From Candidatus Omnitrophota bacterium (lineage in GTDB: Bacteria > Omnitrophota > Gorgyraeia > Zapsychrales > Zapsychraceae), in contig JAHFGL010000024.1 in NCBI GenBank assembly GCA_023247445.1, positions 1 to 36,440 of the forward strand: a stretch of 36,440 bases of DNA, written 5' to 3'. Each line of letters starts with the position of its first letter. The first letter of the stretch is position 1. The notes beneath the pieces were generated by a model that was not told where the DNA came from, did no database searches, and saw only the letters and a list, made by a program, of their open reading frames with translations. The position numbers were made by a program, and so were the translations under genes. Below are positions 14,700 through 30,409 of the stretch, piece after piece.

Positions 14700-15680
14700 T
14701 TAATTCCAGAAACTATCCCCTCCCTCACTATCCGATGAGGAGGTCTCTTCTTGACTCTTAATCCAGGCATTAAAGGTTTCTTCCGGTTCGATCGTAAGAA
14801 ATCCCTTCATTTTATAATGACCGATGCCGCAAAGTTGTGCACAGCCAATTTGAAAATTATATTGTTGGATAAAATTATAAATATCTTCCTTTTCTTTTGG
14901 TGAAACATCGGTCAATTCCATATCTTCAAATTTTTCTAAGGCCCGTGCTTTTGTTTGTAAAGTCCCTCCCGCATCAATATATCCTAGTTCAACAAGTTTA
15001 GCCCAAACGGTATCAGCATCTTTAGCTACTTCGCTGAGTTCTTTTCTTGTAATGGATCCGGTTTTTGTCGGTGTAAACCATGTGGGGATACTCATTCCAG
15101 GGATGACATCTTGCTTAACGCGCATAACCGGCAAGGCAAAGGAATGCATAACATCGCGTGACGTTAAATGGATTAAAACAGGTTTTCCCAGCGGCAAGTG
15201 TAATTGATTAAGTGAATAGACATCATCCTTGCCATGAGGATCAGATGGATCTCGCCCTAATGGATTTGATTGTTTATCGTAAAATTTCATATCCGTTTTA
15301 CCAAAAATTTGATCAGCTCCAGGATAATGGATATTCCAGGCATATTGTTCAGCAATAATTTTAATTTCAAGTTTGTCAGGTCGATCAGGCAGAGCATTAA
15401 CTTGTTTGACCCAAAAAGGAATCGAGAATCCAATCAATAAAATTGTTTCAACAACGGCAACTGAGATTTCTAAATAACTCGAGACATGGGATTTCACCCC
15501 ATAATAATTTGCTTTAGGATTCGCCCATTTATTAAAACGGACTAAGGTAAAAAGAAAGAATGCCCCCCACCCGACAAATAAAGCAATCATCAGTAGATGC
15601 ACAAGGAAAATCATGAAATCAAGTTCGTGCCCATGGGAAGATGCCATGACGGGTAAATGCAGTAATTTAATAAGATCCAT
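14700..15680 (-). CDS. coxB: Cytochrome c oxidase subunit II
   Basis: Two N-terminal TM helices, AEQYAWNIHYPG, DVMHSFALPVMRVKQDVIPG, CuA motif CAQLCGIGHYKM. Confidence 0.95.
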   Translation of the reverse strand: MDLIKLLHLPVMASSHGHELDFMIFLVHLLMIALFVGWGAFFLFTLVRFNKWANPKANYYGVKSHVSSYLEISVAVVETILLIGFSIPFWVKQVNALPDRPDKLEIKIIAEQYAWNIHYPGADQIFGKTDMKFYDKQSNPLGRDPSDPHGKDDVYSLNQLHLPLGKPVLIHLTSRDVMHSFALPVMRVKQDVIPGMSIPTWFTPTKTGSITRKELSEVAKDADTVWAKLVELGYIDAGGTLQTKARALEKFEDMELTDVSPKEKEDIYNFIQQYNFQIGCAQLCGIGHYKMKGFLTIEPEETFNAWIKSQEETSSSDSEGGDSFWN

Positions 15681-16442: not shown

Positions 16443-17036
16443 TTAAGTCAAATATAGAACTGGAAATAAAAATAACCAAACTAAATCAACAAAGTGCCAA
16501 TAGAGTCCAGAGATTTCGATACGATTGGTAAATTGTTCTGGATTTGTTTTCCACATCTTGCTCCCTGGCCCCAGATTGTAAGAATTGACAACGAGCCCTC
16601 CCAAAATATGCAAGGCATGAACACCTGTCAGCGTAAAATAAATGGCCATAAAAGTGCTGTGGCTTGGATAAAGATGGTGATGAAATTTTGCCGAATATTC
16701 AGAGAGTTTTATTCCTAAGAAAACAAGTGTTAATAGAATTGTTGCCCCTTGAAAAAGACGAAACGTATCAAACTTTTTTTGCTTTAAGGAAACCCAGGCC
16801 ATGATCATGGTGATGCTTGAGGAAATAAGAATAAGTGTATTTAAGGCGCCCAAGTGAACATGAAGGATGGATGATCCTAGCGGCCAATCAACGGATCCGA
16901 TGCGTAAAATAATGTACGTCGAGAATAATGCCCCAAAGAGCATAACTTCAGAGGATAAAAACAACCAGATGCCTAATTTGGCATTATATAATCCAGAATC
17001 TTCGCGTGCTTTTATTGTATAAGGAATTTCATCCAT
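16443..17036 (-). CDS. coxC: Cytochrome c oxidase subunit III
   Basis: 197 aa; KLGIWLFLSSEVMLFGALFSTY, LTGVHALHILGGL, YWHFVDLVWLFLFPVLYL. Confidence 0.95.
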   Translation of the reverse strand: MDEIPYTIKAREDSGLYNAKLGIWLFLSSEVMLFGALFSTYIILRIGSVDWPLGSSILHVHLGALNTLILISSSITMIMAWVSLKQKKFDTFRLFQGATILLTLVFLGIKLSEYSAKFHHHLYPSHSTFMAIYFTLTGVHALHILGGLVVNSYNLGPGSKMWKTNPEQFTNRIEISGLYWHFVDLVWLFLFPVLYLT

Positions 17037-18766
17037 TATTTCACGACCTCCTGATCTTGGGGAACAAAGTCTTTACTTGCCCCAGGAACACTATATTCAT
17101 AAGGACCACGATAAACAATTGGTTCATGCGAAAAATTTCCATGGGGCGGTGGTGTTGGCGTGCTCCATTCCAATGTTGTGGCATCCCAAGGATTGTCTGA
17201 GGTGACTTTAGGCCCTTTAAAGATGCTCCAAAGAAGATTGATAATAAAAGGCAGTTGAAATATGGCCAAACCGATTGCAGAATAAAGAATCATTCCATGT
17301 AGATTTAAAACACCTTGAACATGCGCATATTGCATTCCCCCATCATATAGCCGTCGTGACATTCCCATCATTCCTTGCGTGAACATCGGGATAAAAATAC
17401 AGTTCATCAAAAACAGCGATGGCCAGAAATGCAGATGTCCCAATAATTCATTCATTCTTCTCCCCGTTACTTTCGGGAACCAAAAATAGATACCGGCAAA
17501 AATGGCAAAAATAGTTCCTGGCGCAACAATATAATGAAAATGGGCTATGACGTAATAAGTATCATGCAAATGAATATCTGGTGAGGATAAACCTAAAGGT
17601 AGCCCCGTTAAACCTCCGATACCAAACATCGGTAAGAATGCTAACGCAAATAACATTGGGGTGTTGATTCGAATGGATCCTCCCCACAATGAAATAAATA
17701 AACACGTTAAAATAATAACCGATGGAATGGAGATAATCATCGTTGTTGCTTGAAAGAAAGAACTGATGGCTGTTCCCATACCGGTTAAATACATATGATG
17801 GGCCCACACAACAAAGGATAAAAATCCTAACGCAATGGATGCCCAAACCATTGAATAATAACCCCATAATGGTTTTCGAATATTATTAGCTAAAATCTCC
17901 GCGATAATACCAATGGCAGGCAAAATTAAAACATAAACTTCTGGGTGAGCTAAAAACCAAAAAAGATGTTGCCATAACAAAACACTTCCTCCCCCACTAT
18001 AACCTTCGAGAGGTTGTCCGCTAATGACGAGTCCACTAGGCATAAAAAAGCTGGTGTGCGCCAATCGATCCATTAACTGCAAGATGCCAGCGGCCTCAAG
18101 CGGCGGAAAAGCTAAAAGTAAAAGAAAGTTTGTCACAAGCTGTGCCCAGACAAAAAATGGCAAACGCATAAAGGTAAGCCCTTTGGCTCTTAACTGAAAA
18201 ATCGTGGTGATAATATTGATTGATCCAAGTAAGGATGACGTAATCAAAAAAACCATCCCCAGCAGCCAAAATGTTTGTCCTTGTCCAATTGAAAGAACGG
18301 ATAATGGCGCATACGATGTCCATCCAGATTTTGCTGCTCCATCAGGAATAAAAAAGCTTGCAAACATGACGACCCCACCAACGAAATAAGCCCAATAACT
18401 GGCCATGTTAAGTTTTGGAAAGGCCATGTCGGGTGCACCAATTTGTAGAGGAACAACATAATTACCGAAAGCTCCGACAACCAAAGGAACAATCGCTAAA
18501 AAGACCATGATTGTCCCGTGCATCGCCCCTAATTCGTTATAGGCATCGGGAGTCATTGGAGAGAAAGATTCTCCCAGAAATTTTCCGATAAATGGAATCG
18601 CTGTCTCAGGATTGGCGAGCTCCCAACGCATCAGAAGCATTAATGAGAATCCAAATAACAAAAAGCAAAGTGCGGTAAGTCCATATTGCAGTCCGATCAT
18701 TTTGTGATCGGTTGAAAAGATATATTTACGCCAGAAAGGTAAATCGTGAGAATGGCTTTCGCTCAT
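17036..18766 (-). CDS. coxA: Cytochrome c oxidase subunit I (A-type heme-copper oxidase)
   Basis: 576 aa; WQHLFWFLAHPEVYVLILP, VWAHHMY, HDTYYVIAHFHYIVAPG, GNYVVPLQIGAPDMAFPKLN. Confidence 0.98.
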   Translation of the reverse strand: MSESHSHDLPFWRKYIFSTDHKMIGLQYGLTALCFLLFGFSLMLLMRWELANPETAIPFIGKFLGESFSPMTPDAYNELGAMHGTIMVFLAIVPLVVGAFGNYVVPLQIGAPDMAFPKLNMASYWAYFVGGVVMFASFFIPDGAAKSGWTSYAPLSVLSIGQGQTFWLLGMVFLITSSLLGSINIITTIFQLRAKGLTFMRLPFFVWAQLVTNFLLLLAFPPLEAAGILQLMDRLAHTSFFMPSGLVISGQPLEGYSGGGSVLLWQHLFWFLAHPEVYVLILPAIGIIAEILANNIRKPLWGYYSMVWASIALGFLSFVVWAHHMYLTGMGTAISSFFQATTMIISIPSVIILTCLFISLWGGSIRINTPMLFALAFLPMFGIGGLTGLPLGLSSPDIHLHDTYYVIAHFHYIVAPGTIFAIFAGIYFWFPKVTGRRMNELLGHLHFWPSLFLMNCIFIPMFTQGMMGMSRRLYDGGMQYAHVQGVLNLHGMILYSAIGLAIFQLPFIINLLWSIFKGPKVTSDNPWDATTLEWSTPTPPPHGNFSHEPIVYRGPYEYSVPGASKDFVPQDQEVVK

Positions 18767-19676: not shown

Positions 19677-22007
19677 CTATTTCCCTTTAAAATTAATTCC
19701 TGACGAAGAATTATCGAAATAAGGTTCTTCATTTTGTTCATATGGAACATAGGGTTGTGTATAGCGATGATCAAGCGCTCGGGCGCGCTCAACCAGACCA
19801 ATAAATTCCTGTCGATAACCAAATTTATCAACGCCTTGCGTTTGCATCGCCGTTTGTAAAACATGTTCATAATTGGCGGCGGCCTTCCAAGGTGAATTAC
19901 GAAGTAAAAGTCCAAATTCAGCCACACTAGCGGCAAATTTAAAATCAGTATCAGGCGTATTTGTTAAATCGGTTGCCCGAAAAACTTTTTTAACAAGCCG
20001 GCTGATATTGCCTGTGGGTTCTTTGAATCGCAATTTTACCGTCATGACATCGCTACTCTTAAACATTGAAACAGAATTTTGTTGGTAAACTAATGGATCA
20101 ACGCCTGGCTCTGGATAGCTGGTATCGTTCGTTGGAATGATTTCATAAAGCGCGGTAACGGTATGCCCCGCCCCTAACTCTCCGGCATCTTTTTTGTCAT
20201 CATTAAAATCCTGTTTGGCTAGCATACGATTTTCGTAGCCGATTAATTTATAGGCTTTGACTTGTGCTGGATTAAACTCCACTTGAATTTTGACATCCTT
20301 GGCAATAGTAAATAACGTTGAGCCTAATTCATGCACGAGGACTTTGCGGGCCTCAGCATCATTGTCGATGTAAAAATAATTACCATTTCCCTTATCCGCT
20401 AACTGTTCCATTTTGGAATCTTTAAGGTTGCCTGTTCCAAATCCAAGAACGGTTAAGAAGATATTATCTTTTCTCTTCTCTTCAATCATTTGGCCTAATT
20501 CAAAATCGCTGTTGACCCCGACATTAAAATCACCGTCGGTGGCAAGGATTACGCGATTGTTTCCATTTCGAATGAAATTTTGTTTGGCCACTTGATAGGC
20601 TAACTGAATGCCAGCCCCACCGGCCGTTGAGCCACCAGCTTGAAGAGAATCAATCGCTTGCATAATTCGATATTTTTGTGTTCCAGGCGTTGACTCCAAA
20701 ACTAATCCAGCTGCCCCAGCGTATACAACGATTGCAACACGTTCATTATCGTTTAGCTGATTGACCAGCATTCGCAATCCCTCTTTTAATAAAGGAAGTT
20801 TATCTGGCTGATTCATCGATCCAGAGACGTCAATTAAAAAGACAAGATTGCTGGGTGGAATTTGGTTTTGATCAAGTTTTTTTCCTTGAATTCCAATTTG
20901 AACCAAACTGTGACTGGGATTCCATGGACATGCGGAACCTTTTAAAGTAATTGAAAAGCGATCATTCCAACTTGGGTCAGGATAATCATAGCTAAAATAA
21001 TTGATCATCTCTTCAACGCGCACCGCATCTTCCGGTGGCATTTGATTATTGCTTAAAAATCGTCGGATATTGCTATACGATGCATTATCGACATCAATTG
21101 AAAAAGTCGACAACGGATTTAATTTCGCCTCTAAGAATTGATTTTCATAGATGTGCTTATATTCTTCCGTGTTAAATTCAGCGGGCCTTCCATTATATAG
21201 GGCTTCACCTCCACTGATATATCGCTGTTGTAGTTGTTGGTCTTTTTTAGCAAGATAATCTACTCTCGAATAATCGGTTGATTGATAATACGGTTGATTT
21301 TGTAAACCTTCAGAGGCGCGAGCTGCTTGAAAAGCAATTTCAGGAGCAGGCGATGACACAGCTTTTGCAGAAACAAATCCTCTTCCCATTATTTTAGCGG
21401 ATTGTGCGCCAAACTCTCCCTTAGCTAATTGCTCTGGAGCAGAATATCCGGCTATAGAAGAAATATTCTCTTTGAGCTTTTTTCCGTCAGTACCAGATAA
21501 GGTGGATAGATAATATGGTTCATATTGCAAACTGGATTTTGATTGTTGGGCCTGTCCTTGCGCCTGATAAACCGCCGCATCACGAACTCTGGATTGTAGA
21601 GCACCTTGTGGTGTTATTGAGTAAATCCTATCACCAATATCATCAGCAGCTGCTTTTAATCTACCTTGCATTCCTCTGTTTATATAGACCTGAACTGAAA
21701 CAAGTCCGCCAATAATGACAAAGGCAGCGACGGTCCCTGCCAATCGGTTAAAATTCTTATTTTTCATTTTATATGTCTCCTTTTTCACTTCAGGAAGAGA
21801 CGTATAGAGCTTTTGTTGTAAATCCGCGGATAACGATTCATCGGGCCATTTTTTAAGGGCGGCGGAAAGTTTATGAAGTTCTATATAGTAAGCCTGGCAG
21901 GCGGCACATTCTTTTAAATGGGCCACAACCACAGCTTTCTCATCTGAAGTAATTTCTCCATCAAAATAACTGGAGATTAATTGTTTTATTTCGTCATGAT
22001 TATTCAT
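19677..22007 (-). CDS. Transmembrane anti-sigma factor (zinc-finger) fused to YfbK-type von Willebrand factor A domain
   Basis: 776 aa; N-terminal HLKECAACQAYY (HxxxCxxC), TM at AGTVAAFVIIGGLVSVQVYI, vWA MIDAS FLIDVSGSMNQ, ILATDGDFNVG. Confidence 0.88.
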   Translation of the reverse strand: MNNHDEIKQLISSYFDGEITSDEKAVVVAHLKECAACQAYYIELHKLSAALKKWPDESLSADLQQKLYTSLPEVKKETYKMKNKNFNRLAGTVAAFVIIGGLVSVQVYINRGMQGRLKAAADDIGDRIYSITPQGALQSRVRDAAVYQAQGQAQQSKSSLQYEPYYLSTLSGTDGKKLKENISSIAGYSAPEQLAKGEFGAQSAKIMGRGFVSAKAVSSPAPEIAFQAARASEGLQNQPYYQSTDYSRVDYLAKKDQQLQQRYISGGEALYNGRPAEFNTEEYKHIYENQFLEAKLNPLSTFSIDVDNASYSNIRRFLSNNQMPPEDAVRVEEMINYFSYDYPDPSWNDRFSITLKGSACPWNPSHSLVQIGIQGKKLDQNQIPPSNLVFLIDVSGSMNQPDKLPLLKEGLRMLVNQLNDNERVAIVVYAGAAGLVLESTPGTQKYRIMQAIDSLQAGGSTAGGAGIQLAYQVAKQNFIRNGNNRVILATDGDFNVGVNSDFELGQMIEEKRKDNIFLTVLGFGTGNLKDSKMEQLADKGNGNYFYIDNDAEARKVLVHELGSTLFTIAKDVKIQVEFNPAQVKAYKLIGYENRMLAKQDFNDDKKDAGELGAGHTVTALYEIIPTNDTSYPEPGVDPLVYQQNSVSMFKSSDVMTVKLRFKEPTGNISRLVKKVFRATDLTNTPDTDFKFAASVAEFGLLLRNSPWKAAANYEHVLQTAMQTQGVDKFGYRQEFIGLVERARALDHRYTQPYVPYEQNEEPYFDNSSSGINFKGK

Positions 22008-22584
22008 TTTGTCCCTCCGTTACGAAGGATGATAAGTCCTCCCTTAACTGTTCGCGCGCGCGAAAGATCAGAATTTTTGTCTTCTCTAGAGTACAGTTAA
22101 GGATTTGTGCAATTTGTTCATAACTTTGATTGTGATATTCCCGAAGAACAATCGCTTCTTTTTGTTCTAAAGGAAGTTTTTGAATTGAATCACGAACACG
22201 TTTGGCCATCTCTTTTTTTGCCAGGCTCTCCCGGGAAAGATCACTGGAATCTTCGATGTCCCACGCCTCAAAGCCTCCTTCACTATTTTTAGAAGGAAAC
22301 CATGTGGCAACAAAACCTTTTCGTTTTCTGATTCGATCGATACAACTGTTACGGGCAATGGTAAAAAGCCAAGTGGAAAATTTTGCTTTCGGTTGGAAGA
22401 CATATTTTTTAGAAAATAGCGCCAAGAAGACTTCACTGGTAACATCCTCAGCATCCGCCCTATTGCCCAATAGGCGCAGGCTGAAATTAAGGATAGAATG
22501 TTTGTAGCGTTCAAAAATCATCGTGATCGCCTCATCATTTCCGGACTGGTAGTCCGCCATTATGTCTTCGTCGCGTTGTTCCAT
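22000..22584 (-). CDS. ECF RNA polymerase sigma factor
   Basis: 194 aa; region 2 LNFSLRLLGNRADAEDVTSEVFLALF...FSTWLFTIARNSCIDRIRKRKG, region 4 LPLEQKEAIVLREYHNQSYEQIAQILNC. Confidence 0.95.
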   Translation of the reverse strand: MEQRDEDIMADYQSGNDEAITMIFERYKHSILNFSLRLLGNRADAEDVTSEVFLALFSKKYVFQPKAKFSTWLFTIARNSCIDRIRKRKGFVATWFPSKNSEGGFEAWDIEDSSDLSRESLAKKEMAKRVRDSIQKLPLEQKEAIVLREYHNQSYEQIAQILNCTLEKTKILIFRAREQLREDLSSFVTEGQNE

Positions 22585-22692: not shown

Positions 22693-23109
22693 TTATTTAC
22701 GATACTTATCGTATTTAAGCCCAATATGATGCATAAAGGGCTTTAAATTTTTTGGAATTGGAAGATGTCTAAACTCACTGCCGCATTTATAGCAATTAGC
22801 AATCGTAGGCACTCGTTTGTGCAGGAGCCAATCGATTAGGGCAAAGACAGGTAAGCTCAAGCCATATGTCCAGGGAACAAGAATAATTCCAATGGCCATA
22901 ATGGAACAACCAATAAATTGATTAAAATCTTTTGACGTATAAAATTGGCGGGCTTGGCAGGCTGGGCAGAAATCAAAAACTTTATCAAGCGTTGTGATTG
23001 TGCCCCAGGGATGAGCACATTGTGGGCAAACAATCGGGGTCGCGTCTTTTATGTCCACGATATGATATTGTTTACACTTATCACAATGCCGGGCAATGGT
23101 TGGGGTCAC
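22693..23109 (-). CDS. Zinc-ribbon membrane protein of unknown function
   Basis: 138 aa; CDKCKQYH, CPQCAHPWG, CPACQARQF, CYKCGSEF around a hydrophobic segment. Confidence 0.65.
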   Translation of the reverse strand: MTPTIARHCDKCKQYHIVDIKDATPIVCPQCAHPWGTITTLDKVFDFCPACQARQFYTSKDFNQFIGCSIMAIGIILVPWTYGLSLPVFALIDWLLHKRVPTIANCYKCGSEFRHLPIPKNLKPFMHHIGLKYDKYRK

Positions 23110-23879
23110 AACGCGATACCAAATTTAATTAAATAATATTTATAGGTGAGATCGCCTAAAATAACGCCACACAAAATGACATATAAAATACCGGTCGTTG
23201 CTTGTGTATTTTTAAGTTTTAATGTTTCAGTAGCAAAGTATAACGACACCAGTGGAAACATCGTCCCAAAGAATATGGCGATGAGTAAAAAGAATCCATC
23301 GGTTTTCATCATGAACTGCCAGATATAAAGAGAATCGCCGGAATATAAAATATGCCCTGTTAGAAGCACATATGCATCCCAAATAAAGCGCAACAGAACA
23401 AGCAGCCAAAATGTATAGGTGGCGCGAGCAAGATGTGACATGGGAAGTCCATGGACATTCAAATACCAATGACCTAAATTCATGGCAAATAGCGATGAAC
23501 AAAATATGAGCCCCGCTAAAATGGAAATTATTGTCAGCGTAAGTCCTGGGCCAATCAAGGCTTCTTGAACTTTGGCAAAGGTGATGATTCCAAGAGCGCA
23601 AGGAACGGTCATCAACAGCGGTTTTGGATATTCTTTTTTCCATGAATAACTAGAGACGGATAGAAAAGACAATTTCCAAAGAACCGCTAAGATTTTTATG
23701 GGTGACGGAATATCAAGAAGGAGTAGAAAAACAAGCGTGATCCCTCCCACGATATTGGGAAGGCCGATGTGGAACTTGTGAAAATTATTTTTAAGTGGGT
23801 CTTTATAGCTGATCCAGAAGCATAATGGGTAGATGACGGAAAAGATTAGGCTCGTTAGGATGGAAATTTTAAAAAGCAT
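23106..23879 (-). CDS. Polytopic membrane protein with NLGHWYLNVHGLP motif; start revised from 23930 to 23879
   Basis: Start MLFKISILTSL preceded by GAGGA; extra 17 codons of the longer ORF come from a GTGAAGC repeat. Confidence 0.65.
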   Translation of the reverse strand: MLFKISILTSLIFSVIYPLCFWISYKDPLKNNFHKFHIGLPNIVGGITLVFLLLLDIPSPIKILAVLWKLSFLSVSSYSWKKEYPKPLLMTVPCALGIITFAKVQEALIGPGLTLTIISILAGLIFCSSLFAMNLGHWYLNVHGLPMSHLARATYTFWLLVLLRFIWDAYVLLTGHILYSGDSLYIWQFMMKTDGFFLLIAIFFGTMFPLVSLYFATETLKLKNTQATTGILYVILCGVILGDLTYKYYLIKFGIAL

Positions 23880-23891
23880 GTGGTGTGTTCC

Positions 23892-23952
23892 TCGTGAAGC
23901 GTGAAGCGTGAAGCGTATCATACGTTTCACGCTTCACGAACAACGATTCACG
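23892..23952. repeat. CGTGAAG tandem/palindromic element
   Basis: CGTGAAGCGTGAAGCGTGAAGCGTATCATACGTTTCACGCTTCACGAACAACGATTCACG; 18/19-bp stem. Confidence 0.85.
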
Positions 23953-23956
23953 TATA

Positions 23957-26900
23957 TTATTTCGCATCAGAAGTTACAGCTGGAGTTTTATCAGTGGCAG
24001 GTGCTGGAGGTTGTGCTGGTGCTACTTCCTTTGTTTTTTCACCTTCTGGGACGACAACAATAGGACGATCAGCCAAGGACATTAAGAAGTTGCGTAACAC
24101 GCGAATTTGTTCATGCTCATCGCCGCCTAAAATGTCTTTAGGTCCCGCGTTATCAAAATCATTAGGGTCAAAGAAAGTTGGCATCTTAGTCCCAGGCAAT
24201 ACATCTTGAGGATTTGTAATCCATTTAATGATCCAGTCAGGCTTTAAACGATTTTTGGCCAATGCAAGATTTGGAGCTAAAACTTCCGCGTCACCTTTTG
24301 GCACAATGTTTCCAACAACATGGCATTTCATACAGTCCAGGCCATCTGGTGAGAATAATTTTTGCCCTGCTTTGTATTCTTCTTCAGTTAATGATACATT
24401 CGCTTTGTCCATAAAAGGAAAATCTTCTTTATCAAGGGCATTAAAATATTTAATTAACGCGTTTAAATGAGAAGCATTAAAGCTATAGGTGGGCATGCGA
24501 ACCTTAAGCCATGGACGAATTGTCACAGGCTCATGCAAGAATTCAAATAACCATTGTGTCTGAACTTTTTTCCCTTCGCCTTCTAAATTGGGCGGACTAA
24601 AGTTGGATGCCATGATTGTTGCCTTGGCTTCATCACGGTTGTCATATTTCTTTAACCATTCTTTAACACTTGGGGCGATAGCACCACCTTCTCCACTAAT
24701 AATATGACATCCTTGGCAATTAAGCTGACGGATAATTTTTTCGCCTTTTTCAATATACAGATTTTCTGGCGTTCGTGGTTTAATTTTATTGACCACGGTT
24801 TTATTTTTTGTAAACCCAACAATGGCTGTTGTAATAGCCTCCGCTTCTTCTTCGGTAAAATTAAAATTAGGCATGATGAGTTTATCGTTTGCTTCTTTAA
24901 TTTTGCCTTGGTCAAAGATTCGCGGATTCTTAAGCTTTTGCATAAACCATGCTTCTTTACTGTGATCGATGTGAATGAATCCAAAATCTAACTTTGACGC
25001 TGATTTACTTCCTTCTTCAGTTAATTCCGCGCCGATGGGCTTCGCACTTTCAAAACCTTTGATGTTATGACAGGCGTAGCAACCGTAATGACCAACTAAT
25101 TTTTCACCCGCAAAAACTAATTTTTGATCAAGGTTCATTGACGCTAACTTTTTCACAGCGACCTGCATTGGATCAATTTTTTTAAGAAAATCTAAGGCAA
25201 TATCATCAATGATTTTTTCGTTAACCGGAGCAATGGGTTTCTTATCAAACTTCTCGGCCTTATCTTCTGACAAATATTGCGCAATGTCCGCCGCCTCCTG
25301 ATCACTTAAACGCAAGTTAGGCATTCGCGTTTGTGGATGATAACGATTTGGATCCTTTAGCCAACTATAAATCCATTCTTTTGATGTTTTACTTCCTAGC
25401 CCAATAAGATTTGGTCCATGTTCGCGATGAAGGTTTTCAGCGTTTCGTGCTTGATCCGTTTTTTGTGGCTGCACTTGATGACAGGCGAAACAACCAATCG
25501 AACTGACAAGCTCTTCTCCTTTTTTCACATCACCAACAAGTGGAATCGGATCTTTTTTGTATTCCGTTGTATTGGCCAAGAGAAACTGAGTAATCGCATG
25601 AATTTCTTGTTCACCGCGCTGATGCGAGGCGGGATCATTATTATTCGATTGATCAAAAAAGGCTGGCATCCATGTATTGTGACGGAAAGATTTGGGATCT
25701 TCAATCCAACGATAAATCCATTCAGCTGAAGTTTTCGATGATAATTTTGTTAAGTCAGGACCTGACTTGGGCCAATCCTTGTATTTATCAATGGTGTGGC
25801 AGTTATAACATCCAGCGCGCTCAATAAGCGCTAAACCAAAATTTAATTTTTTCGCCCCTTTAATTGTTTCTTGTCCTGCGTGACATTTAAAACAACCAGC
25901 TTCAACATATTGTTTGGCCAGCATCGGTTCTTCCCAATGATGGAATTCCTGCCAATTATATTTTTTGGTCCATTCTTTCTTTTGTTCTTCAGATGATGGC
26001 GTATGAACTGCTGACAAAAAGCCTGTGCCTCGGCCTCGACCACCATGGCAAACGGTACAACCAAATTCTTCGATGGGATGCGCAGAATCTTTCCCTAAAT
26101 AGAGCTCAAGATTGGGATGTGTTCGATAGGGCTGAGCAGCATTTTTGTAGTCAGGGTTACTGATTCCTAAATGGCAGCTGATGCAGCGGTCCACTTTGGG
26201 AACTTGTTTAAAATTGACGTCATCGGTTATATCAGCCAGAACAATCTGTTCGATTTTAACACTGGGGTTGGCCAGATCAATAACCGGTAAATCGCGAACC
26301 AAGCTCGCCATTTGACTAGACAGGCTTTTTTTAGTGTCATCGATTTTGCCAAGTTTGCGTTCAAGAATGCTCGTCTGCTTCGTGAATGTTTTTAGTTTTC
26401 GTTGTAAGTCTTTTAATTGTTGGCCGCAACTTTCGATGGTTTTATTTTTTTCATTGATCGCCTCGGCCGATTGCTCAACCTGGGCTTTTAAATTGGTTGC
26501 TTCGCTAAGAAGCTTTTCATATTCTTGCCGGGATTTCTCGCTATGTTTTGGATCATGAGCTTTAGCCTCTTCGTAGCGAAACCGTGCCGCATCAAGCGTC
26601 GCATTGGTAAATTTTAGTTTCTGTTCAGAAAGTGTATTGGCGGTTGTGAGTGTCTTTATTTCATTTTCAAAATTTTTGAAATTTGTGCATTTCCCATCAA
26701 AATCTTTTTGTGCGGCTTTAATTTCTTTTAATAAAAATTGATATTCTTCGCTACTTTCTAGCTTATGCGAAGCCTCGTCATACTTGGTCCTTGCTTTTTC
26801 AACTTCGTAGGCTTTAAATTGTTTTTGATAATCCTTCCATTGGCGAGAATAATCTTTTAAAAACAATGATCCTAAAGAAAATAACAGAATCAATGACGCG

Positions 26901-26959
26901 ATGGCAAAGATAAAGTGCAGACTGTTAAGATTATAATGACTTTCGGGTTGTTTACTCAC
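23957..26959 (-). CDS. Membrane-anchored octaheme c-type cytochrome with N-terminal coiled coil
   Basis: 1000 aa; N-terminal TM, ~200-aa charged helical region, eight CXXCH (CISCH, CTVCH, CFKCH, CYNCH, CFACH, CYACH, CQGCH, CMKCH). Confidence 0.9.
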   Translation of the reverse strand: MSKQPESHYNLNSLHFIFAIASLILLFSLGSLFLKDYSRQWKDYQKQFKAYEVEKARTKYDEASHKLESSEEYQFLLKEIKAAQKDFDGKCTNFKNFENEIKTLTTANTLSEQKLKFTNATLDAARFRYEEAKAHDPKHSEKSRQEYEKLLSEATNLKAQVEQSAEAINEKNKTIESCGQQLKDLQRKLKTFTKQTSILERKLGKIDDTKKSLSSQMASLVRDLPVIDLANPSVKIEQIVLADITDDVNFKQVPKVDRCISCHLGISNPDYKNAAQPYRTHPNLELYLGKDSAHPIEEFGCTVCHGGRGRGTGFLSAVHTPSSEEQKKEWTKKYNWQEFHHWEEPMLAKQYVEAGCFKCHAGQETIKGAKKLNFGLALIERAGCYNCHTIDKYKDWPKSGPDLTKLSSKTSAEWIYRWIEDPKSFRHNTWMPAFFDQSNNNDPASHQRGEQEIHAITQFLLANTTEYKKDPIPLVGDVKKGEELVSSIGCFACHQVQPQKTDQARNAENLHREHGPNLIGLGSKTSKEWIYSWLKDPNRYHPQTRMPNLRLSDQEAADIAQYLSEDKAEKFDKKPIAPVNEKIIDDIALDFLKKIDPMQVAVKKLASMNLDQKLVFAGEKLVGHYGCYACHNIKGFESAKPIGAELTEEGSKSASKLDFGFIHIDHSKEAWFMQKLKNPRIFDQGKIKEANDKLIMPNFNFTEEEAEAITTAIVGFTKNKTVVNKIKPRTPENLYIEKGEKIIRQLNCQGCHIISGEGGAIAPSVKEWLKKYDNRDEAKATIMASNFSPPNLEGEGKKVQTQWLFEFLHEPVTIRPWLKVRMPTYSFNASHLNALIKYFNALDKEDFPFMDKANVSLTEEEYKAGQKLFSPDGLDCMKCHVVGNIVPKGDAEVLAPNLALAKNRLKPDWIIKWITNPQDVLPGTKMPTFFDPNDFDNAGPKDILGGDEHEQIRVLRNFLMSLADRPIVVVPEGEKTKEVAPAQPPAPATDKTPAVTSDAK

Positions 26960-26967
26960 ACGTGTCC

Positions 26968-28083
26968 TTATATATTGAAGAAGAATTCGGGAATCGCAAT
27001 AATATACTTAATGTTAAAGCCCCAGCGCAAATACATCTTGATCGGCAGGCTAATCGCCAGAAGTAAAAACACAATAAAAATGCTATAGCGAACCGGTCCT
27101 AACCTTTGGTATACATCTTTTAAAAATGTTTTGGCTAAAATAAGTGGAATTAAACCAAAATAAATTCCCATTACAATAAAACCTCCCGCTTCGCGTAAGA
27201 AAATATTCTCGGGCAATGGACGCTTGAGGATTATCATATAAATTAATTCAGAAAGATTAAGGTTTGTTAAGGCAACAAGTTTATGGGGGTCCCAATATTC
27301 AAAGGGTCCAAAGAAGTTCCAGTTAGGGCCACGTAAAAATGTCCCTGTTGAAATTAAAAATATCCAAAGAACAAGCCAGAAAAATAAGAAAATCGACACA
27401 GCCATTTTTCGATCTTTAACGCTATAGTAGCCACAACCTTTGGGATTATTATCAAGAAAAGGTATCGCCATAAATCCTAAGATAATAACCGTGGGGAAAA
27501 CGACCCCAGCAATCCAAGGATCAAAATAGACTAGCATTTCCTGTAACCCCAAGAAATACCAGGGTGCCTTCGAAGGATTAGGTGAAACGGTTGGATTGGC
27601 TGGTTCCTCAAGTGGTGCGCCAAGACCGATGGCCCATACCAAAAGAAGCGCCGAAATTACGACAAGGGCGATTAATTCAATATAAACTAAATCTGGCCAG
27701 ACTAAAACTTTTTCTTTGGCATCATCCGCCTCAGCGGGAGGCTTGCCTTCTTCGATACGTTTATCATTCTCCCAGGCTTGCTTTAAACTTAGCCACAGGA
27801 AAAAAACAACCAAAAATAGAAGTCCAACAATGGGAACATTGTCGGGTTTAATAACGATCAGACGAAAATTATCATCGCTTAATCCAAACGCGAAAAATAA
27901 AATCATAACGACAAAAATGCCAATGCCGCCATTCTTGGTCCATAATTTATTAAGGCCTAACTTTTTACTTGCTTTGTAAAACCAATCATTGGGGGGAAAT
28001 AAAAAGAAGAATACCAAGAGAATGGCTGTAAACATTATCTCTGGTGCGCAAGCTGCGTTAATAATTGCTTTAAGTGATTCCAT
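26968..28083 (-). CDS. Cytochrome b C-terminal-half (subunit IV-like) protein with extra N- and C-terminal TM helices
   Basis: 371 aa; PNPSKAPWYFLGLQEMLVYFDPWIAGVVFPTVIILGFMAIPFLDNNP. Confidence 0.85.
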   Translation of the reverse strand: MESLKAIINAACAPEIMFTAILLVFFFLFPPNDWFYKASKKLGLNKLWTKNGGIGIFVVMILFFAFGLSDDNFRLIVIKPDNVPIVGLLFLVVFFLWLSLKQAWENDKRIEEGKPPAEADDAKEKVLVWPDLVYIELIALVVISALLLVWAIGLGAPLEEPANPTVSPNPSKAPWYFLGLQEMLVYFDPWIAGVVFPTVIILGFMAIPFLDNNPKGCGYYSVKDRKMAVSIFLFFWLVLWIFLISTGTFLRGPNWNFFGPFEYWDPHKLVALTNLNLSELIYMIILKRPLPENIFLREAGGFIVMGIYFGLIPLILAKTFLKDVYQRLGPVRYSIFIVFLLLAISLPIKMYLRWGFNIKYIIAIPEFFFNI

Positions 28084-28088
28084 AAATT

Positions 28089-28883
28089 TTAAGTTGGCCC
28101 CGAAATCCCGCCGTCTTTTCTAACACGCCAGAAGTGAACAATCATAAAAATCATAATAACAAAAGGTAACCCAATGCAATGTAAGACATAAAATCGTAGT
28201 AGCGCCCCTTCCCCGACAAATCGTCCACCGAGCATGGCAAACCGCGCGTCACTGGCGGCATGAACAAAATTAACATCGCCGATGGCAAGTAATGATGCGC
28301 CAGGACCAGATGCCCCTAATAGCGGTGTTGCGCCGGCCATGTTGGATCCAACCGTGATCGCCCAAATTGCAAGCTGATCCCAAGGAAGCAAATATCCGGT
28401 AAAACTCATAAGCATCGTCAAAACCAAAAGAATAACCCCAACCATCCAATTAAATTCACGGGGCGGTTTATACGATCCCGTCATAAAAACGCGAAACATG
28501 TGCAGCCAAACGGTGATGACCATTAAATGCGCGCCCCAACGATGGATTTCGCGCATAAGACCAAGTGGTACTTGTTCACTTAAATCAATGATATCGCCAT
28601 AGGCATATTCAACCGTTGGGCGATAATAAAACATCAGTAAAATTCCTGTAATCGTTAAGACCAAAAATACAAAAAAGGATAAGCCGCCCATGCACCAGGT
28701 GTATTTAACTTTGACGGCATGTTTAGGAAGACGGATCGGATGTAAGTGCAGAAAAACATTATTGAGCGTAACAAGGATGCGCTGTTTATGGGTGGAAATG
28801 GGTGCCCCACCGGTACGAAAGATCGCGCGATACAATTGTGTTTTTTTAAAATTCTCTAAAAATTTATTATTGCCTTCACTCAT
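28089..28883 (-). CDS. Cytochrome b N-terminal half (b6-like)
   Basis: 264 aa; [89 protein letters not shown]. Confidence 0.95.
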
Positions 28884-28902
28884 GTATTCCTCTTTAGTAA
28901 TT

Positions 28903-28972
28903 TGTCATCCTGAGCGTAAGCGAAGGATCGCTTAAGAGATCCTTCAGTCGCTTTCGCTCCTTCAGGATGACG
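28903..28972. repeat. GTCATYCTGAG...CAGGATGAC palindromic element, copy C
   Basis: TGTCATCCTGAGCGTAAGCGAAGGATCGCTTAAGAGATCCTTCAGTCGCTTTCGCTCCTTCAGGATGACGG. Confidence 0.9.
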
Positions 28973-28981
28973 GTATCAATT

Positions 28982-29542
28982 TTATACACTCAAATACGAT
29001 TCCGGATCCGACCACTCCCCTTTTTCCTGCTGGAATTTTTTTGTTTTATCGATAAAGATTTCACCATCATCAGTCAAGGTGATTTTATATCGTTCCAGCG
29101 GCCGTGGGGCTGGCCCTTCAAAATTAATTCCTGTTTTATAAAATCCACTTCCATGACAGGGACATTTAAATTTATTTTCATTACCCATCCAATTGGGCGT
29201 ACACCCTAAGTGAGTACAAAAAGTCGCAAGCACATAAATTTTTTCCGTATCACGGACAATCCACGCCCCATGCTTATCCTTAAACCTTTCTGAAACTTCA
29301 CCAATTGTATATTCATCAGGATAACCAGCTAGGAAGCTTTGTTTTGGCTCAAATAAAACATTTGGGAAAAGATAGCGCATGATCATCGCGCCATAACCGC
29401 CCAAAACAGCCACAAATGCGCCCCAACCAATAACCGACCATTTGATAAAAGATCGACGATCCATTGGTTCGTTTAAACTAACAGGCTTCGGTGGTGTTGT
29501 TTGAGCTGGTTGATTGGAAGGTTTTTGTATTGGGTCGCTCAT
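28982..29542 (-). CDS. Rieske [2Fe-2S] protein with twin-arginine signal anchor
   Basis: CTHLGC...CPCHGSGF; DRRSFIKW before a TM segment. Confidence 0.95.
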   Translation of the reverse strand: MSDPIQKPSNQPAQTTPPKPVSLNEPMDRRSFIKWSVIGWGAFVAVLGGYGAMIMRYLFPNVLFEPKQSFLAGYPDEYTIGEVSERFKDKHGAWIVRDTEKIYVLATFCTHLGCTPNWMGNENKFKCPCHGSGFYKTGINFEGPAPRPLERYKITLTDDGEIFIDKTKKFQQEKGEWSDPESYLSV

Positions 29543-29548
29543 AAAAAG

Positions 29549-30409
29549 TTATTTTAGAATTTTTAACGCTGCTGATCGAATTTTCATATTTTGATCAGTT
29601 CGAGATAATTCTTCAATGCGTTTAGTTAAATCGGAATCCTGTAAATGCGTTATTGCTTCAAGCGTTGTTAACATCAAATTTGTTTGTTCGTCCATATCTA
29701 CTTCAGAAAACTTTGATAAATAATCACGGTTGAGTAATTGTAGCAAAGTTTGTTTTCCTGAATTATCCCCTAATTGCGCCAGCGATATCGCGGCCCCCCA
29801 CTCTACATTTGGTTCAGGGTCAGCTAACGCCTTGATTAAAATATTTTTTGATTCACCATCCCCAATATTACCAAGGGCAACGACGGCTGTCGAACGTATA
29901 CGCGCATTGGGATGATCCACATAAGGATTAATCGCTTCCAGTGCTTCTTTGTCTTTGAGCATTCCTAGGGCATAAATTAAAGCCGCCAGATTTTCTTCTT
30001 TTTCGTCAACTAGCCCGTTAATTAAAGGTTTAACAAATTCCTTTTTGCCCGTACGCCCCATGGCCAGGGCCAAGTACTGACGAACGCGATTATCATCGGT
30101 TGTTGCGTGCTCAAAGGTGCTGATAAGCTCATCATAAAAATTTTCCTGTTTTGGCAAGAGTTTTGGATTGGCCAAAATTTTTGATAATTCAAACGCGGCT
30201 TGCCAGCGCTTAGTGCTTCCACCAATTTTGACATCATTTAAATAATCTTTGGCAGTTCTTTTTTCTTGCGTCAAAAGATTAATGGCGGCAAAAAGCATCA
30301 CACAAAAAACAGCAATTAGAAATGGTATGATAAAGAACGAATGAACAATAACACTAAAAAATGATTTTTTTTCTTCGTCTTTCTGCGCTTCGATTTGTTC
30401 CGTAGTCAT
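29549..30409 (-). CDS. Membrane-anchored HEAT-repeat protein
   Basis: 286 aa; N-terminal TM; repeated helical units (RVRQYLALAMGRTGKKEFVKPLINGL, NLAALIYALGMLKDKEALEAI, RIRSTAVVALGNIGDGESKNIL). Confidence 0.85.
   Translation of the reverse strand: MTTEQIEAQKDEEKKSFFSVIVHSFFIIPFLIAVFCVMLFAAINLLTQEKRTAKDYLNDVKIGGSTKRWQAAFELSKILANPKLLPKQENFYDELISTFEHATTDDNRVRQYLALAMGRTGKKEFVKPLINGLVDEKEENLAALIYALGMLKDKEALEAINPYVDHPNARIRSTAVVALGNIGDGESKNILIKALADPEPNVEWGAAISLAQLGDNSGKQTLLQLLNRDYLSKFSEVDMDEQTNLMLTTLEAITHLQDSDLTKRIEELSRTDQNMKIRSAALKILK

Follow-up and report, generated by a model that had tools for sequence, protein, structure and literature searches.

An anchored octaheme cytochrome c very probably replaces cytochrome c1 or f in an Omnitrophota bc operon, with an amicyanin-type cupredoxin as candidate carrier to the oxidase

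A 1000-residue protein encoded by a Candidatus Omnitrophota bacterium carries eight CXXCH motifs behind a membrane anchor and, as judged from its sequence and gene neighborhood, very probably stands in for cytochrome c1 or f within a complex built around a Rieske protein and a split cytochrome b. We lean toward a reading in which this octaheme cytochrome serves a b6f-like complex as its c-type output subunit and an amicyanin-type cupredoxin carries its electrons to the CuA site of the oxidase. The window, by which we mean the whole 36,440-nucleotide stretch of DNA analyzed (contig JAHFGL010000024.1 of assembly GCA_023247445.1), holds both the bc and the cox genes, and their features are collected in Table 1. 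The source genome spans 2.29 Mb in 75 contigs and is 95.6% complete.

Table 1. Genes, heme sites, and proposed ligands of the bc and cox clusters, with positions counted along the window and residues (aa) along the octaheme.
Feature	Position	Strand	Remarks
Octaheme cytochrome c	23957..26959	minus	1000 aa, GTG start; TM anchor, coiled coil, 3-heme module, 5 class-I domains
N-terminal membrane anchor helix, aa 11-37	26849..26929	minus	hydropathy and AlphaFold2
Long charged helices / coiled coil, aa 40-206	26342..26842	minus	AlphaFold2 helices 40-69, 71-90, 94-135, 137-206
Heme 1, CISCH, aa 259	26171..26185	minus	motif, 55-sequence alignment
Heme 2, CTVCH, aa 301	26045..26059	minus	motif, 55-sequence alignment
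Heme 3, CFKCH, aa 356	25880..25894	minus	motif, 55-sequence alignment
Invariant His 281, 294, 319 outside the CXXCH motifs; proposed distal ligands, hemes 1-3	26003..26119	minus	55/55; role inferred
Heme 4, CYNCH, aa 384, class-I domain 1	25796..25810	minus	proposed ligand Met431, codon 25667-25669
Heme 5, CFACH, aa 490, class-I domain 2	25478..25492	minus	proposed ligand Met546, codon 25322-25324
Heme 6, CYACH, aa 627, class-I domain 3	25067..25081	minus	proposed ligand Met696, codon 24872-24874
Heme 7, CQGCH, aa 748, class-I domain 4	24704..24718	minus	proposed ligand Met822, codon 24494-24496
Heme 8, CMKCH, aa 876, class-I domain 5	24320..24334	minus	proposed ligand Met926, codon 24182-24184
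Cytochrome b C-half, subunit-IV-like, 371 aa	26968..28083	minus	PF00032; about 8 hydrophobic segments, Qo motif KAPWY
Cytochrome b N-half, b6-like	28089..28883	minus	best PDB match cytochrome b6, E 5e-43
Rieske iron-sulfur protein, CTHLGC...CPCHGSGF	28982..29542	minus	PF00355
Membrane-anchored HEAT-repeat protein, likely accessory subunit	29549..30409	minus	PF13646
Membrane protein, 274 aa, directly downstream of octaheme	23106..23930	minus	no Pfam or NCBIfam match
Exported amicyanin-type cupredoxin with C-terminal TTR-like domain, 237 aa	18781..19494	minus	candidate mobile carrier
COX1, cytochrome c oxidase subunit I	17036..18766	minus	PF00115, E 3e-131
CoxB (COX2), CuA motif CAQLCGIGHYKM, without fused cytochrome c	14700..15680	minus	PF00116

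The open reading frame, its eight CXXCH motifs, and a transmembrane helix followed by about 200 charged helical residues were all part of the original prediction, which left the strand unstated, and each was recovered here. The gene starts 8 bp past the stop codon of the cytochrome b C-half and lies in a minus-strand series that runs from F-ATPase genes through those for the HEAT-repeat protein, the Rieske protein, and the N- and C-terminal halves of cytochrome b to the octaheme and then a 274-residue membrane protein. All eight CXXCH motifs are invariant in 55 aligned sequences, and 2000 shuffles of the protein gave a mean of 0.012 such motifs and a maximum of one per shuffle. The sole strongly hydrophobic segment by hydropathy (residues 16-34) falls within the anchor helix drawn by AlphaFold2, and the long helices that follow have pLDDT values mostly between 70 and 95. 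Two checks that had been suggested gave different returns: the domain search placed Pfam class-I cytochrome c domains in the central and C-terminal regions of the protein, including three PF00034 matches, and the structure prediction stood for the anchor and long helices but not for residues 221-320, which include the first two heme sites and have pLDDT values of 38-66 in a model built without hemes. Foldseek found no significant match to the octaheme model, its best hits being SMC-type and F-BAR coiled coils with insignificant E values, so no family can be claimed on the basis of fold. An octaheme of the HAO/OTR type was considered and rejected because the last five hemes are assigned to class-I His/Met domains; no HAO match was returned by Pfam, a PDB sequence search, or Foldseek.

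Conservation allows the heme ligands to be counted. Eight hemes have 16 axial ligands, of which eight are the proximal His residues of the CXXCH motifs and eight are distal. Besides the motifs themselves, exactly three other His residues (281, 294, and 319) are invariant in 55 of 55 octahemes, as are five Met residues in MP motifs (431, 546, 696, 822, and 926), which sit 47-74 residues after hemes 4 to 8. Three His and five Met make up the exact number of distal ligands and therefore point to three bis-His hemes and five His/Met domains. The octaheme would then begin with a three-heme bis-His module and continue with five class-I domains.

The surroundings of the gene speak to the role of its product. 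The original prediction had set the protein in a bc operon, described it as neither a cytochrome c1 nor a simple diheme c, and raised the replacement of c1. The Rieske gene and the two cytochrome b genes indeed lie directly upstream in the same orientation, and all three are upstream of the octaheme in 62 of 62 checkable loci, namely those with more than 4 kb of upstream DNA. The bc-cluster proteins scanned include no Pfam match to cytochrome c1 and no match to cytochrome f, and the octaheme is the only c-type subunit in the operon. Because it is the sole c-type subunit and is found in the bc operon at every locus with enough flanking sequence, it very probably replaces c1 or f; it would work like these two proteins yet is a member of neither family.

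Several features of the partner genes are also conserved. The HEAT gene accompanies the others in 61 of the 62 loci, and its product, encoded before the Rieske protein across phyla, is likely an unrecognized subunit or assembly factor. A Cys of the cytochrome b N-half matches, in the alignment, the C in b6's YCLGG stretch (the site of the covalent heme cN) and stands in a WCM or WCA context in 68 of 75 loci. In the Qo motif of the C-half, which reads KAPWY and not PEWY, Pro replaces the Glu of PEWY, and the same holds for 74 of 79 related loci. The Rieske sequence CPCHGSGF is kept in most loci, and a serine of this kind has been tied to raised potential (PMC12954380). The 274-residue membrane protein is present in 18 of 80 loci, mostly on the Omnitrophota branch; it and a zinc-ribbon protein (both in 22693-23930, minus strand) follow the octaheme almost only there.

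Relatives of the octaheme are encoded by at least 551 stretches of the species collection and by none in the plasmid collection. The closest named ones are mostly Omnitrophota MAGs at 50-59% identity, and the best 80 of the at least 551 include MAGs labeled Omnitrophota, Neomarinimicrobiota, Acidobacteria, Latescibacterota, and Hydrogenedentota; labels such as Planctomycetales and Desulfobacterales may reflect wrong binnings. A full or nearly full octaheme is encoded in 20 of 55 related genomes.

The absence of a small soluble cytochrome c from the window, noted in the original prediction, agrees with the lack of any further CXXCH among its translated genes, and the survey for loss of such proteins proposed at the same time favors absence more widely. 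Pfam Cytochrom_C (PF00034) matches only the octaheme gene in the genome, and PF13442 (Cytochrome_CBB3) matches the octaheme gene and, below the cutoff, one redoxin fusion. Pattern searches for CXXCH-coding sites, with the surrounding open reading frames read (about 1 kb per site beyond the first 30), turned up no small class-I cytochrome c around 192 of 198 sites, in a genome of which about 4% may be missing. The credible c-type cytochromes from this survey were the octaheme, five redoxin-monoheme fusions, NrfH, and NrfA; the remaining surveyed sites were out of frame or belonged to zinc, redox, or radical-SAM motifs of cytoplasmic proteins. Across related genomes, a tally of the listed frames makes the octaheme the only Cytochrom_C gene in 11 of the 20 genomes that encode it. 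The redoxin-monoheme fusions (C1 and C10) were set aside as carriers since they are redoxin proteins of 290-600 aa that are mostly monooxygenase-like. Four of their reading frames stand in tandem (G000:C1:4010-10167, L136) and a fifth lies apart (C10:32527, L049); most of the fusions add a copper-monooxygenase-like part. The NrfH-NrfA pair (G000:C59, L215:5269-7345) comprises a tetraheme quinol dehydrogenase and a nitrite reductase to ammonium.

A missing cytochrome c gene need not mean a missing mobile carrier. The first gene of the cox cluster, directly before COX1 and overlooked in the original prediction, encodes a CXXCH-free protein whose N-terminal region includes a hydrophobic segment and which, on the strength of its predicted fold and its proposed His, Cys, His, and Met ligands, is a putative type-1 copper protein of the amicyanin type. 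All 45 aligned sequences keep the proposed Cu ligands (His125, Cys163, His166, and Met169), which show the amicyanin spacing C-x2-H-x2-M. The AlphaFold2 model has a pLDDT of 93.9, and its best small Foldseek matches are amicyanins (E ~5e-6); the family profile matches amicyanin (E ~6e-5) and an archaeal blue-copper protein. Searches with Pfam Copper-bind and Cupredoxin_1 found no other cupredoxin in the genome, although this one also scores below both models. The octaheme, COX1, and the cupredoxin occur together in 19 of 55 genomes, which is 19 of the 20 that encode the octaheme, and Fisher tests of octaheme co-occurrence with either COX1 or the cupredoxin across the 55 genomes give p ~1e-10. 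Neither COX1 nor the cupredoxin was seen in octaheme genome G003. Coordinates read for the loci place the cupredoxin start within ~160 bp of the octaheme stop, on the same strand, in about 15 of them. In Caldithrix, which has no soluble monoheme cytochrome c, plastocyanin has been proposed as the shuttle (PMC5317091).

Other observations concern the cox cluster and its flank. Homologues of Sco1, CtaA, and CtaB are also encoded in the cluster. In the CoxB stretch AEQYAWNIHY, as in 25 related loci, F or Y occupies the place at which mitochondrial-type subunit II would have its electron-entry Trp. The CuA site of CoxB has CAQLC. Between the bc and cox clusters (19677-22584, minus strand) lie genes for a sigma factor and for a YfbK/VWA protein whose N-terminus is zf-HC2 anti-sigma-like. 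A relative that encodes no octaheme (G035) has two COX1 genes and the cupredoxin, with Cytochrom_C genes beside one cox gene.

We infer a path for these proteins that takes in the heme ligation, the order of the hemes, the joining of the octaheme to the bc proteins in one assembly, and a carrier role for the cupredoxin. Quinol would be oxidized by a b6f-like complex of the Rieske protein, the split cytochrome b, and the octaheme in place of c1 or f, with one transmembrane helix and the long coiled coil holding the octaheme. Electrons from the Rieske cluster would enter the N-terminal module of three bis-His hemes close to the membrane and then pass through the five class-I His/Met domains in series. 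The outer domains would reduce the exported amicyanin-type cupredoxin, which would in turn deliver electrons to CuA of an aa3-type oxidase.

Of the candidates for the last step, the cupredoxin is the likeliest carrier between the octaheme and CuA. The original prediction suggested that the octaheme may replace the mobile carrier too and connect straight to CoxB, a proposal that is not supported now that an exported cupredoxin is seen to head the cox cluster. For such a connection the octaheme would dock onto CoxB in a bc-oxidase supercomplex and reduce CuA from its outer hemes with no mobile carrier, much as actinobacterial bcc-aa3 supercomplexes have been proposed to use their tethered cytochrome cc. 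In many loci the bc and cox clusters adjoin, the five serial His/Met domains have ample reach, and both the genome search and the 11 genomes with the octaheme as sole Cytochrom_C gene are in keeping with this arrangement. However, a conserved exported cupredoxin linked to the octaheme and oxidase genes would be superfluous in it, CoxB lacks a fused cytochrome c, and octaheme genomes G002, G015, and G024 also have small Cytochrom_C frames of 102-198 aa. We therefore consider direct docking doubtful and less likely than the cupredoxin carrier. Because the cupredoxin is exported, has invariant ligands, and co-occurs with both the octaheme and the oxidase, CoxB is more likely to be reached through a copper carrier.

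Copper proteins of cox clusters can be assembly factors, which counts against the carrier role. That the cupredoxin serves copper delivery to CuA or its assembly, with the true carrier having gone undetected (such as a small cytochrome c encoded in the 4% of the genome that is missing), strikes us as improbable. Its place at the head of a cluster that includes Sco1, CtaA, and CtaB homologues fits such a role, and both the completeness of the MAG and the 192 of 198 CXXCH sites covered leave some room for an undetected carrier. Yet an H-C-H-M type-1 site that is complete and spaced as in amicyanin is a signature of electron transfer, and Sco1 is already encoded. Moreover, since 11 of the 20 related genomes are without a further Cytochrom_C gene, incompleteness of a single assembly explains the finding poorly. 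The oxidase as end point can also be questioned, as the NrfHA of the same genome is another periplasmic sink, and a Kuenenia complex of this type has been proposed to make NAD(P)H (PMC12954380). The octaheme complex might then mainly serve another acceptor, through a periplasmic nitrite reductase or reverse electron flow, and its link to the oxidase would be incidental. Against this stands COX1, which accompanies the octaheme in 19 of the 20 genomes that encode it. The span from 22693 to 30409 contains no NAD(P) oxidoreductase gene, and for that reason an NAD(P)H-forming complex as in Kuenenia was rejected for the Omnitrophota operon. In addition, NrfH takes its electrons from quinol directly. 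Service to another acceptor is thus very improbable in our estimation.

If the octaheme does feed the oxidase through the cupredoxin, the bc-to-oxidase segment would consist of a heme wire and copper instead of cytochrome c1 and cytochrome c. For b6f-like Rieske/cytochrome b complexes with a multiheme c subunit, the present case bears on which subunit substitutes for c1 or f and how electrons reach the oxidase, and it supplies an exact ligand count for eight hemes, an architecture fixed across several phyla, and a named candidate carrier. We would put at even odds the broader proposal that several uncultured phyla respire aerobically without a small soluble cytochrome c, the octaheme passing electrons to the oxidase directly or via the amicyanin-type protein. 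The pattern of three His and five Met ligands and the link between octaheme and cupredoxin appear to be new in the literature searched; as far as that literature shows, so are the fixed HEAT partner and the failure of a nearly complete search to find a soluble cytochrome c.

The architecture itself, originally supposed to be poorly characterized, had been reported before. The accessible text of a 2013 report on Nitrospina gracilis already describes an operon of a Rieske protein and split cytochrome b whose only c-type gene encodes an "atypical octaheme cytochrome c," and places such operons also in Kuenenia and Methylomirabilis oxyfera (PMC3578206). On that description, the Nitrospina and Omnitrophota operons share a Rieske protein beside a split b6/subunit-IV cytochrome b and an octaheme as the sole adjacent c-type subunit, and Nitrospina is an aerobic organism. 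The HEAT protein and the linkage of cupredoxin and cox genes, in contrast, are not mentioned in that accessible text (PMC3578206). A 2025 study of Kuenenia Kustd1480-1485 reports a b6-like four-helix cytochrome b, a heme cN site, a subunit-IV-like protein, and a large multiheme c that replaces cytochrome f, all shared with the operon described here; that cytochrome, Kustd1485, likewise has a transmembrane helix and long alpha-helices, which wrap half of the complex (PMC12954380). The Kuenenia complex differs in having a putative NAD(P) oxidoreductase subunit, which is absent in the Omnitrophota operon, and a SUIV with five transmembrane helices where the Omnitrophota C-half has about eight hydrophobic segments, and no oxidase linkage is described for it (PMC12954380).

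Against the classical complexes, the Rieske and cytochrome b homologues are common to b6f and bc1, and the b6-type fission and cN cysteine are shared features as well, whereas the octaheme stands in place of cytochrome f or c1 and KAPWY in place of PEWY. Alternative complex III was rejected because a Rieske protein and cytochrome b are present; similarity to ACIII is limited to a weak resemblance of one stretch to subunit A. The cupredoxin shares with amicyanin and pseudoazurin the predicted cupredoxin fold, the C-x2-H-x2-M loop, and the upstream His, but it falls below the Copper-bind cutoff and adds about 90 N-terminal residues and a C-terminal TTR-like domain. Likened by anatomy and by the published descriptions, the octaheme belongs to the same kind as those of Nitrospina, Kuenenia, and Methylomirabilis.
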